From Halorubrum lacusprofundi ATCC 49239 (GTDB lineage Archaea > Halobacteriota > Halobacteria > Halobacteriales > Haloferacaceae): 64,000 bases of DNA. Shown here one piece after another: positions 5,805-51,544 of the stretch. The notes below the pieces were generated by a model. The model was not told the origin of the DNA and searched no databases. It worked only from the letters and a program-made list of their open reading frames with translations. The stretch's first letter is position 1. Each line of letters begins with the position of its first letter. Both the position numbers and the translations under genes were made by a program. The stretch lies in assembly GCF_000022205.1 (NCBI RefSeq), contig NC_012029.1, forward strand, positions 992,001 to 1,056,000, written 5' to 3'.

Positions 5805-6266
5805 TCACAGCTCCGCGACCACCTCTTTGCGCCCGGTGAGCGTCTCCGGGACGAGTCGGTAGAACGAAAAGCTGACATCTGCTGGTCGATCGCCGAAGAT
5901 ATCCACGAACGGGATCGTGACGCCTTCGAATCCCGCGAGCGCTTCCGTGGCGGTCTCGTCACCTGTTGTCGGTTCGAGAGTCCCCTGAGCGACGACACTG
6001 ACGTAGCCGCCGATCTCCTCGTCCCTATCGTACGTGACGAACGTCACGGATCTGCCGTCTAGTTCGCCTTTCCGCTTGGGCGGGAGATCGGCTATCCGGA
6101 AGTAGAACGCGGTCTGTACAGCGTTGTATCCGAACGAAACCGGGACGCTGTGTGGCGGCTCGTCGGACGGTGTCGACAGGGAAAGCACTCCGGTGCTGAC
6201 ACGATCTAAGAATGCGTCCCTCTCCGAATCGCTTAGCTGGATCTTTTCTCGAGCAGTCTCGACCAT
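5805..6266 (-). CDS. Pyridoxamine 5'-phosphate oxidase-fold flavin protein
   Basis: 153 residues from ATG 6266; an upstream TTG at 6293 is less likely. The sequence LSDSERDAFLDRVSTGVLSL, PHSVPVSFGYNAVQTAFYFR and SVTFVTYDRDEEIGGYVSVV is the split-barrel FMN-binding fold common in haloarchaeal PPOX-like proteins, which bind flavin (or F420 in related groups) and reduce small molecules. A TATA-like ATATATAGG lies about 45 nt upstream (6310-6318). Single gene, convergent with the VOC gene. Physiological substrate unknown. Confidence 0.8.
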   Translation of the reverse strand: MVETAREKIQLSDSERDAFLDRVSTGVLSLSTPSDEPPHSVPVSFGYNAVQTAFYFRIADLPPKRKGELDGRSVTFVTYDRDEEIGGYVSVVAQGTLEPTTGDETATEALAGFEGVTIPFVDIFGDRPADVSFSFYRLVPETLTGRKEVVAEL

Positions 6267-6652
6267 ACGCCCCTGTAGAGGGTCGAATACCAAAAGACAG
6301 AGGGTGGCCTATATATGTGGTCTCGGTGTTCGGCCGAACTCGCGCTCCGTTCAGTCGTCGACAGCGCTGAGATCGAGCGTATTCCGACACGGAGTCGTGT
6401 CAAATACGCGCCTTGTCTCTCGCACGCCTCCCAGCACTCTCGATCGTCAGTAGGCAGTTTCGGCTCCGTTGACGCCCTCGTCTTCAGATATCGCACAGCA
6501 TGACGCATCGGATCGCTGAAGCCTGCCGCTTGATCGATAGCGGGAGTGGGTATCGCGAATTGGTGACACGGTTGTTTATAAGCGATCGAGTGATGTTGCT
6601 GGCGGTTGTTTATATGTGATCGACGCTTCTGCGGTGAAGACCTCCAAAGCCC

Positions 6653-6749
6653 CAGCCGCGAGGGCGGCGCACGCTCGCTGCGCGCCTCACTCAGTTGCTA
6701 TCGCTCCCTCGTTGCGGTGCTTACATCGCCTGCGCCGCCCTCGCGGCTG
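6653..6749. repeat. Perfect 19-bp inverted repeat inside copy A
   Basis: The arm at 6653-6671 (CAGCCGCGAGGGCGGCGCA) is the exact reverse complement of 6731-6749, separated by 59 bases. As RNA or cruciform DNA this would be a very stable stem. It replaces the position occupied in copy B by a short CCGGCGC-GTA-GCGCCGG hairpin directly after the same CAAAGCCCCAG sequence. Confidence 0.85.
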
Positions 6750-6842
6750 CCCCTTTAAGTCCCGCCCGACCGCAACCGCACAGCCTCACGCCTCCCCAGC
6801 CTCGTCGCTCGCTGCGTCGCCGGCGTTGCGCGCCGGCTGCAT

Positions 6843-6861
6843 GAGGGACCTTCGGTCCCTC
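6843..6861. repeat. Stem-loop GAGGGACC-TTC-GGTCCCTC
   Basis: Perfect 8-bp stem with a 3-base loop inside copy A. It is followed at about 6885-6925 by a further imperfect stem (GGGCGCTCGGAGGCGC side). The density of stems in this block argues for function at the RNA or DNA structural level rather than coding. Confidence 0.8.
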
Positions 6862-7135
6862 TCTGCTCGCGACTCCCTCGCGCGGCGCTCCTCGCGCCCA
6901 AAGGGCGCTCGGAGGCGCGCGCCACCGCCTCGTTCATTTATAAGTGATCGTCGCCGTCACTCCCGCCCTTTTAAATACCGTATCGTCGCCATCGATCTGC
7001 AACACTCACTCCCGTACTCTCTCACCACTGTGCCTGTACTGACCGGAACCGAGGCAGAATGTGTCTCCTGGATAGAGTCTCAACGAGCCGAAGTTCCGGT
7101 TTTCCGACCCGATCGCCTCGGAACTCACCGGACTG

Positions 7136-26385: not shown

Positions 26386-26408
26386 TGCGCCGGCCGGGAT
26401 TGTGAACC
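26386..26408 (-). repeat. Partial copy of the tRNA-Gly 3' end (att-like)
   Basis: TGCGCCGGCCGGGAT (26386-26400) is identical to the last 15 bases of the tRNA gene at 26477-26491, and TGTGAACC follows where the tRNA has TTGAACCC. It lies 91 bases downstream of the tRNA in the same orientation. Such duplicated 3' ends are left when elements integrate into tRNA genes. Confidence 0.7.
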
Positions 26409-26476
26409 ACGGTCGCTCGCTACGCTCGCTCTCTGATTTAAATCCCTCGGCGATTTCTCTCACTTCGTTCGAGAAA

Positions 26477-35756: not shown

Positions 35757-36485
35757 TCACGTCTCTCTGGTCAGGTGCGTCTTGGCGGCGTTTCCAAACA
35801 GGAATGCGAGGATCTTGCGCTCGGCTGCAAAGACGTGTTCTGAGAAGGTAGCCGATGTGATCCCGAGTTCGTCGGCAACGTCTTGTCCCGTACAGTCGCG
35901 TGGCCATTCGTAATATCCCATCCCAAACGCGGTCTGCAGAACTTCTTGCTGTCTATTAGTCAGATCGTTGAGGATCGACTGCTGGAGCGTAGAGGGAGTC
36001 AACATGGATGTGTGCGTGTCTTTCGTCCGTTTCGCTATCAGTTCGAAATCGGAATACTCCTCAAGGAACTGTCCGGTAACTGCTGGCGGATCATTCCGCG
36101 GCGGGATCTCGGCGACGATACGCCCACGACCGTCGACGCCTTCGACGGTTTTCGGGAGGGCTCCGAGTTCAGCGAGCCGATACGCCGGACAGTTTCCAGA
36201 CACGATGAATTCGAACAGACCGCCGTCATCGTATTCGCTGAGGAGTGAGGTTTCGACGGTGTCATACGTGTCTACGTGACTCGTGATTCGAGCGGGAGGC
36301 GCGCCTAGCACGTTGAAGAATTCCGCGTATTTCCCTTCCGGACGAGGGATGATCTTTGCGAGTTCGACCCGACACTGTTCTTCCTCGGACACGCCGACGA
36401 ACGGATACGCTGGGTTCTGAACAGTGAGTTCGATCTCAACCACGGGACCGGTCTGGTTGTCGCTCTGATCTTCTGAAGGGCCCAT
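35757..36485 (-). CDS. Bat-type helix-turn-helix transcription regulator
   Basis: 242 residues from ATG 36485; an upstream TTG is unlikely because a TATA-like box (CATAAAAGTTT at about 36510-36522) lies 25-35 bases upstream. The C-terminal HTH_10 domain LTNRQQEVLQTAFGMGYYEW, CTGQDVADELGITSATFSEH and AERKILAFLFGNA is the bacterio-opsin activator type. The N-terminal about 150 residues form a sensor-like domain of the kind found in haloarchaeal Bat and DmsR relatives. Targets unknown. Confidence 0.88.
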   Translation of the reverse strand: MGPSEDQSDNQTGPVVEIELTVQNPAYPFVGVSEEEQCRVELAKIIPRPEGKYAEFFNVLGAPPARITSHVDTYDTVETSLLSEYDDGGLFEFIVSGNCPAYRLAELGALPKTVEGVDGRGRIVAEIPPRNDPPAVTGQFLEEYSDFELIAKRTKDTHTSMLTPSTLQQSILNDLTNRQQEVLQTAFGMGYYEWPRDCTGQDVADELGITSATFSEHVFAAERKILAFLFGNAAKTHLTRET

Positions 36486-36905
36486 TACATACAATACCCG
36501 CTGACGATGCTAAACTTTTATGTGAACAGTTACTTAAATTTCATTTCCGGGGTTTGGCCACTTCGTCTGTATGGGGACAGCCGTCCCCGACGGCGGGAGT
36601 ACGTGACGCAGATTGGTTGATCAGCCATTTATAAGTGGATGTGTGGTGTTGTTGGCGGCTATTTATACGCCGTCGATGACGCGGTGACTACCCCCAAAGC
36701 CCCAGTTACCGGCGCGTAGCGCCGGCGACGCCGCCACAGTCCGTTTATAAGTGGCCGACGCTGCGCTCGCGATTATTTATATACCGAATCGCCGCTGACA
36801 AACTGCAACATCCACTCTCGTAATCGATCAAGAGGCAGTCGTCAACGAACGGTTGTATCAGTTGAAAGCCTGTCTGAGGTGTCGGAGTTCGACGAAGCTC
36901 TCGTG
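36486..36905. other. Intergenic gap with regulator promoter and repeat copy B
   Basis: The left 60 bases hold the promoter of the Bat-type gene. Bases 36628-36820 are repeat copy B. No gene is supported in the rest; the frames through the repeat are arginine-rich and short. Confidence 0.6.
36628..36820 (+). repeat. Dispersed intergenic repeat, copy B (short form)
   Basis: Homologous to the ends of 6575-7014 (same order: TTTATAAG, GTTGTTGGCGG, TTTATA, CCAAAGCCCCAG, then TTTATAAGTG and CTGCAACA). Its middle is only a 7-bp hairpin, CCGGCGC-GTA-GCGCCGG at about 36709-36726, where copy A has about 280 bases of longer inverted repeats. Three TTTATA-type boxes are spaced through it. Confidence 0.7.
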
Positions 36906-37742: not shown

Positions 37743-37808
37743 GAGCGATCAGCGGTCCGGCTAGCTCTTAAAAGGCTGGTTGGGCGGGTAGCAGTTGATA
37801 GCGAGGAC

Positions 37809-37899
37809 GGAAGCGAGGATGGCAGCGAGGTGGCAGCGAGGTGGCAGCGAGGATGGCAGCGAGGTGGCAGCGAGGATGGCAGCGAGGTGGCAGCGAGGA
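37809..37899. repeat. 11/12-bp tandem repeat, about seven to eight units
   Basis: Units of GGCAGCGAGGT and GGCAGCGAGGAT alternate across 37819-37900, with a degenerate first unit at 37809 (GGAAGCGAGGAT). It lies between nadM and the SAM hydrolase, both transcribed leftward. No open gene is supported here. Likely variable by slippage. Confidence 0.85.
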
Positions 37900-37919
37900 T
37901 AGAAACGCGAGATCGCCAG

Positions 37920-51119: not shown

Positions 51120-51544
51120 CGAATCGCCGGAAGTGAGTTGTCCCGACAGAGTTGCATCATTTACCAACGAAATTGTTATACAGACATTATTGGATGTCGA
51201 GAATTTGGTAAATGGGTCCATCTAATCTCACCCGGGTAGGCCCCTTTAGCGTTGAGTCACAGGCCATCTCGCTGACTCTACTCCGGAGAATCGTGTGAGA
51301 AGATTACGACAGTCTCAGATCGAGTTCTCTTGTGCATAATATGCGCGTTGTATCTTGCACAGCTAACGGAACATCTCCGTGAATTGGTAGAACCTCCGGT
51401 GGTCAATAAGAACCTCCGGTGGTCAATAAGAACTTCCGGTGGTCAATACGTAACCGTCGGCGACTGGCTGTTTCATGCTGCAGGATGTCTGAAAGAGAGG
51501 AGTTCAACAGCGCCCGGCGTGCCGGATTCGACAGAGAGCGAGCC
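51120..51544. other. Non-coding gap upstream of the multicopper oxidase
   Basis: 425 bases between the oxidase start and the aldehyde oxidoreductase stop. It contains the Tat gene promoter area and the triple 20-bp repeat at 51391-51450. No protein gene is supported; short frames here have no family features. Confidence 0.6.
51391..51450. repeat. Three tandem 20-bp repeats
   Basis: AACCTCCGGTGGTCAATAAG occurs at 51391, again at 51411, and as AACTTCCGGTGGTCAATACG at 51431. They lie 272-331 bases upstream of the multicopper oxidase start. Binding sites for a regulator or a variable tandem tract are both possible; it is not a CRISPR. Confidence 0.88.

Follow-up and report, generated by a model that had tools for sequence, protein, structure and literature searches.

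Copies A and B, two intergenic modules in the window (a stretch of 64,000 nucleotides, bases 992001–1056000 of Halorubrum lacusprofundi chromosome 1), belong to what we judge to be a real and abundant repeat family of mobile type, for which any function would be secondary. On the basis of sequence, the full copies probably represent a composite MITE or small-mobile-repeat family with an embedded minisatellite (probability of about 0.7), and we regard the family as a whole, with similar confidence, as Halorubrum-specific, non-autonomous, intergenic and mobile repeats. Our confidence in the origin of the copies that lack inverted repeats is lower than that for the full copies. Among the roles that the original prediction proposed for copy A, that of a non-autonomous mobile element is well supported by inverted-repeat ends, by outer ends like those of IS5-type MITEs, by presence/absence polymorphism and by in-place inversion. 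The repeat family is apparently undescribed, with its core sequence not found in the literature searched.

Modular structure of copies A and B and their ends

The modules of the family occur in a fixed order: an inner inverted repeat, one to five UNITs, the hairpin HP1, MID, the hairpin HP3, TATR and a second inverted repeat. Two classes of copy can be distinguished: full copies, to which A and B belong, carry the inverted repeats, whereas the more numerous copies of the other class lack them and consist of UNIT-HP1-MID-HP3; a minimal form at 2356390 consists of two inverted repeats and TATR only (121 bp). UNITs form tandem arrays with a period of 54 or 57 bp, each UNIT containing a TATA-like box and the 12-mer core CCAAAGCCCCAG, and UNIT spacing in H. 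sodomense (L147) is 51 bp. In the sampled genome stretches, the UNIT and MID profiles gave 110 and 61 matches, respectively, and the TATR profile gave 36.

Copy A extends from approximately 6457 to 7092 and copy B from approximately 36589 to 36826. The intervals originally predicted, 6575–7014 and 36628–36820, lie inside these elements, but they fell short of the inverted repeats (~6533 and ~7025) and outer ends of copy A as well as of the start of copy B. At no more than ~640 bp, copy A is too short for a transposase, as is typical of MITEs, and the most widely spaced paired inverted repeats in the family have ~490 bp between them.

Copy A begins with an outer left end (6457–6532, plus strand; TTCGGCTCCGTTGACGCCC at its start, with the motif at chromosome position 998460), a degenerate "L-type" IS5-family MITE end by an eight-sequence profile of chromosomal ends whose matches are to intact MITE ends on plasmids (E ~1e-17), followed by the left inner inverted repeat (6533–6560, plus; GATCGATAGCGGGAGTGGGTATCGCG), defined by a genome pattern and by an alignment of 35 ends. 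The interior, all given on the plus strand, then comprises TATA-like box 1 (TTTATAA, 6575–6581); a UNIT (6600–6655, by profile) with box 2 (6609–6614) and the core (6644–6655); HP1 (6653–6749), whose arms at 6653–6674 and 6728–6749 were recognized by self-match, fold and covariation; the MID linker (6750–6811, by profile and motif positions), which runs from CCCCTTTAAGTCCC to CCTCACGCCTCCCCAGCCTCG; two small nested palindromes (6819–6861; 6819–6837 and 6843–6861) apparent from sequence reading and folding; HP3 (6873–6928), found by listing of copies to have a symmetric TC/TC internal mismatch that is tandem GA/GA on the minus strand; and TATR (6937–6977, by profile and position) with box 3 (6937–6943) and box 4 (TTTAAATA, 6970–6977). 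On the minus strand, the right inner inverted repeat (6992–7025; GATCTGCAACACTCACTCCCG; genome pattern at 998998–999019, and alignment) is followed by an outer right end (7026–7092), a degenerate "R-type" IS5-family MITE end by a profile with matches to MITE ends on plasmids (E 1e-9 to 1e-8).

Copy B is simpler. Its left inner inverted repeat (36589–36615, plus; pattern at 1028589–1028610) precedes two TATA-like boxes at 36628 and 36662 and the core at 36694–36705 (together 36628–36705, plus; homology, profiles and positions), and a short hairpin read from the sequence, CCGGCGCGTAGCGCCGG (36709–36725, plus), replaces HP1-MID-HP3, for which the profiles gave no match in this copy. TATR (36744–36781, plus; profiles and positions), with boxes at 36744 and 36776, and the right inner inverted repeat (36803–36826, minus; CTGCAACATCCACTCTCGTAATC; pattern at 1028804–1028825) complete it. 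The left ends of A and B match at 73% (E 8.5e-6), and module profiles showed both left and right modules to be common to the two copies. The TTTATA boxes at these positions, the core in each copy, the homology at both ends and a structured middle of copy A, where HP1 is accompanied by further palindromes, had all been correctly read in the original prediction. Elsewhere in the window, a lone HP1 fragment with the other modules missing is present at 26400–26435, and a tandem repeat of ~9 copies of 11–12 bp (AGCGAGGATGGC/AGCGAGGTGGC) at 37800–37900. At four loci (L011, L032, L199 and L236), HP1 is reversed inside elements that are otherwise in normal orientation.

The inner inverted repeat pattern occurs 27 times in the genome, compared with 2 occurrences of a control, and 26 of the 27 are on the main chromosome. 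In the 35 aligned ends, similarity continues outward beyond this repeat and terminates in a motif resembling GGCTCTGTTGAAATCC, which on other replicons bounds both an insertion sequence with an IS5-family transposase and MITEs of 343–489 bp. Comparison of chromosomal outer-end profiles with the MITE ends gave matches of correct position and orientation (E ~1e-17 on the left, ~1e-9 on the right). The outer ends, degenerate and found in a minority of copies, are therefore terminal inverted repeats related to those of a known transposon, of IS5 type, whereas no transposon partner was found for the inner inverted repeats. A target-site duplication was looked for at copy A and none was evident; a plasmid MITE (in L112) is flanked by an 8-bp GTTTCGTG duplication. 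The IS5-family insertion sequence at L109 (G000:C3:284500-286600) has counterparts of 99.8–99.9% identity in halophilic archaeon DL31 and Halobacterium sp. DL1, and this near-identity suggests recent exchange. Another IS5-type MITE end motif (GGCGCTGTTGAACTCC) lies in the window at 51499–51516 (minus), near a 20-bp tandem repeat present three times (51389–51448).

Hairpins with a conserved internal mismatch also recall palindromic elements of the PATE or REP type moved by the TnpA of IS200/IS605, and a TnpB gene is located inside one element (G000:C2:2602507-2604060; L068, L278), with TnpA/TnpB genes near two more. Full copies, however, have terminal inverted repeats, which PATEs do not, and a scan of 36 TnpA/TnpB loci with HP1, MID and HP3 profiles found matches only in neighboring or interrupted elements, not at transposon ends, so that we consider such an origin extremely improbable. 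The TnpB gene at 2602507–2604060 sits between TIRL and UNIT modules and was apparently inserted into the element.

Genomic distribution and gene context

In place of the two copies originally predicted, the sampled stretches of H. lacusprofundi chromosome 1 contain ~80 intergenic copies, including A and B, a total that is a lower bound because the profiles were run over stretches around copies and not over the whole genome. Iterated copy A profiles yielded 88 module clusters in these stretches, ~80 of which contain UNIT or MID. The same-genome count that the original prediction had proposed gave ~45 further places matched by copy A (best E 2e-86) and 66 exact occurrences of the core, every one on chromosome 1; the 15-mer CCAAAGCCCCAGYCG occurs 61 times, compared with 0 for its reversed control, so that recurrence is far in excess of chance. 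The genome comprises 3,692,576 bp in three contigs, and replicons of 2,735,295, 525,943 and 431,338 bp have been described for strain ACAM 34 (PMC5018182). The core motif was searched for and is absent on both other replicons, and for 74 clustered sites placed uniformly the chance of this outcome is ~2e-10. The lower G+C content of the non-main replicons (PMC5018182) may contribute to the confinement to chromosome 1.

The refuting case set out in the original prediction, in which just two copies would exist without conservation in relatives, did not hold: relatives of the element were present in all 34 same-genus genomes first searched. In a wider sample, 10 of 23 genera gave matches, which were weak beyond Halorubrum, and the number of strict cores per genome ranged from 6 to 162 (eight genomes). 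In a pattern scan of named genomes, nearly all of the at least 80 matches listed were to Halorubrum species, the exceptions among them being two archaeal MAGs and one Hellea MAG. The module had no match in phage records, no exact match in IMG/VR and only eight partial matches in a plasmid collection, and a virus or plasmid origin was rejected on these grounds. The chromosomal structure site also envisaged originally was not upheld in a polar form: orientation runs along the chromosome were random in two genomes (p = 0.12 and 0.98), and a chromosome-polarity motif was rejected.

Gaps that contain the element in H. lacusprofundi (n = 73) were convergent in 30 cases, tandem in 35 and divergent in 8, compared with 22, 130 and 66, respectively, for other gaps (n = 218); the corresponding numbers in other Halorubrum genomes were 40, 29 and 9 for element gaps (n = 78) and 22, 183 and 92 for non-element gaps (n = 297). 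Convergent gaps were thus enriched (p = 4e-9 for 30/73 versus 22/218 and 1e-19 for 40/78 versus 22/297) and divergent gaps depleted, although single assignments may be wrong given that genes were called with a simple codon-usage caller. A function as promoter of neighboring genes appears unlikely for most copies. No BRE was found at the TATA-like boxes, nor at control promoters.

Such strong enrichment would be expected of a bidirectional terminator or insulator retained between convergent genes, as would the retention of orientation at orthologous sites (53 of 53 pairs), and in Haloferax volcanii 503 of 1,543 termination sites have a hairpin upstream, one structure tested there having terminated, albeit with lower efficiency than a T stretch (PMC7237163). 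Many copies are nevertheless located in tandem gaps, convergent genes manage without the element at many empty sites, modules including HP1 are gained and lost, and no T stretch follows the hairpins of copy A. Promoter avoidance alone would yield equal convergent enrichment. We consider retention as a terminator or insulator rather unlikely.

Site polymorphism, inversion and hairpin evolution

A glyoxalase gene and a PAS/GAF histidine kinase gene converge on copy A, which separates their 3' ends. In two relatives (G012 and G031) an element of matching orientation occupies this site, and in three (G003, G015 and G006) an inverted one; the tree includes 11 relatives with no element there, one of which (G024) has another gene in its place, and in G062 only 27 bp separate the gene matches. 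Filled, empty and inverted states are scattered over the flank tree. At the copy B site, modules were found in G003, G005 and G015 and in none of 17 others. For both A and B, orthologous sites thus occur with and without the element, which supports mobility of the MITE type. The clearest evidence for in-place inversion is the comparison of G012 with G003 at the copy A site, in which the flanks are collinear (78% over 161 bp on the left, 89% over 119 bp on the right), the interior matches in reverse (78% over 429 bp) and the breakpoints coincide with the inner inverted repeats. Each of the two sites also has an extra gene in H. lacusprofundi, pyridoxamine-oxidase-like at 5805–6293 near copy A and a BAT/HTH_10 regulator at 35757–36494 near copy B, and in many relatives the neighbors of these genes are directly adjacent.

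Among copies without inverted repeats, orientation agreed in all 53 orthologous pairs compared; these had been gathered by presence of the core, so that shared presence is expected but shared orientation is not forced. This constancy also fits old vertical inheritance or function. The modules themselves turn over: UNIT number was unequal in 41 of 68 same-orientation pairs, HP1 (its loop) was inverted in 5 of 51, and in 13 of the 53 pairs lacking inverted repeats one partner has no HP1. The most recent example involves H. distributum (L206) and Halorubrum sp. Atlit-26R (L217), whose flanks are ~98% identical but in which a different unit is triplicated in each, with HP1 deleted from the latter except for a single stem arm. 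HP1 likeness was 0.75 for orthologous pairs and 0.76 for random pairs, which does not prove gene conversion because nearby intergenic DNA is also near saturation; loss of the orthology signal was therefore set aside as such a proof.

Pairing within HP1 is maintained despite sequence change. Among 176 copies, 11.8 of 13 arm positions pair within a copy, compared with 9.2 between copies, and several stem positions show three or four Watson-Crick pair types, each in quantity. The 1570 stem cells (10 positions in 157 copies) comprised 1494 Watson-Crick pairs, 13 G:U, 32 A:C and 31 others. When all copies were counted, the excess of A:C, corresponding to G:U on the minus strand, reached significance (p = 0.007), but it did not when each distinct stem was counted once (p = 0.13), and we therefore claim no strand for the stems. 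In HP3, 123 of 142 copies retain the TC/TC mismatch, which reads as a tandem G.A motif on the minus strand, even as the stem covaries, and the minus strand is predicted to be more stable in 130 of the 142. Covariation together with a kept mismatch suggests that a DNA structure is maintained, through either selection or arm-to-arm correction; the retained mismatch argues that more than such correction is at work, and some structure-specific selection, unexplained by mobility alone, is suggested.

These features bear on the original suggestion of a small-RNA locus with tandem promoters, considered here in a form in which TATA-like boxes would drive a structured RNA through HP1-MID-HP3 on either strand. 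The boxes do lie at fixed places, the stems are strongly conserved, and the conserved HP3 motif lies in a hairpin predicted to fold more stably on the minus strand. G:U pairs are nearly absent, however, and the strand-reversed wobble signal is lost on unique stems; modules are lost, inverted or renumbered at orthologous sites, divergent gaps are avoided and a search of Rfam gave no known RNA family. A family of small-RNA genes is accordingly very unlikely as judged from these patterns. It is also rather doubtful that the module goes beyond passive mobility, as a DNA structural element found across the genus and confined to the chromosome. Its sites and orientation would then be inherited even as UNIT number and hairpins turn over, and some host or transposon protein would keep it by recognizing the minus-strand hairpin and the tandem G.A mismatch conserved there.

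Proposed origin and comparison with known repeats

Under the composite-MITE reading, full copies would consist of a hairpin-minisatellite module between inner inverted repeats of ~27 bp, together with decayed IS5-family MITE ends. An IS5-family transposase that recognizes GGCTCTGTTGAAATCC ends may once have moved them in trans, recombination between the inner repeats would account for inversion, and slippage would expand or contract the UNIT arrays. The hairpins are probably kept mainly as DNA structures, and copies would persist between gene 3' ends, where insertion is likely to do little harm and where hairpins may incidentally help to part convergent transcripts. Several points argue against this reading: no target-site duplication is demonstrable for the element, its outer IS5-type ends are decayed and recognizable only in a minority of copies, and no mobilizer was identified for the larger class without inverted repeats. 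The constant orientation of that class at orthologous sites and the kept HP3 mismatch, both described above, also count against it.

Large, and hosted by an archaeal genus that is widely studied, the family provides natural experiments in inversion at short inverted repeats, growth of 54/57-bp arrays and maintenance of pairing in palindromes despite sequence change. It also calls for caution, in that intergenic DNA of haloarchaea may owe its TATA-like boxes and stable folds to repeats and not to RNA genes.

Several known repeats share parts of this design. The intergenic repeats of halovirus HF2, a virus of Halorubrum, are 58 and 29 bp long and also contain AT boxes, but they are proven promoters, two of them at the 5' ends of long transcripts (PMC8707807); the UNIT sequence had no match in phage records. 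Bacterial REP and REPIN sequences are likewise many-copy extragenic palindromes (PMC3733652, PMC3116915), but REPs are 20–40 bp with GTAG or CGTC tags (PMC3733652), whereas the Halorubrum unit is hundreds of base pairs long with inverted-repeat ends. Haloarchaeal PATEs are also palindromes present in many copies and without a transposase gene, but they lack terminal inverted repeats and have ends in common with IS605-type transposons (PMC3119063), and the Halorubrum element differs from them in both respects.

Closer in design, as judged by analogy, are the MITEs and small mobile repeats (SMRs) of Haloquadratum walsbyi, which are short and transposase-free with inverted-repeat ends, the SMRs being missing from a large plasmid (PMC3119063). 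Together with "SwitchRepeats," they are haloarchaeal transposase-free repeats that occur in either orientation at one position (PMC3119063). SMR-A elements measure ~110 bp and target other mobile elements, and no tandem TATA units or paired hairpins are reported for any of these repeats (PMC3119063). SMRs are further characterized by the lack of a target duplication and by ends without relation to known transposons, whereas the Halorubrum outer ends match an IS5-type MITE. The closest counterpart in design is BrickBuilt, a MITE of the bacterium Porphyromonas gingivalis (PMC4596501). BrickBuilt differs in having 23-nt units and 19 copies, in that its abstract features no counterpart of the HP1/HP3 hairpin pair, and in that its promoter activity was measured, whereas the promoter-like boxes of the Halorubrum element are read from sequence; it resembles that element in being intergenic and multi-copy, in its narrow host range and promoter-like parts, and in carrying a minisatellite inside an inverted-repeat MITE.
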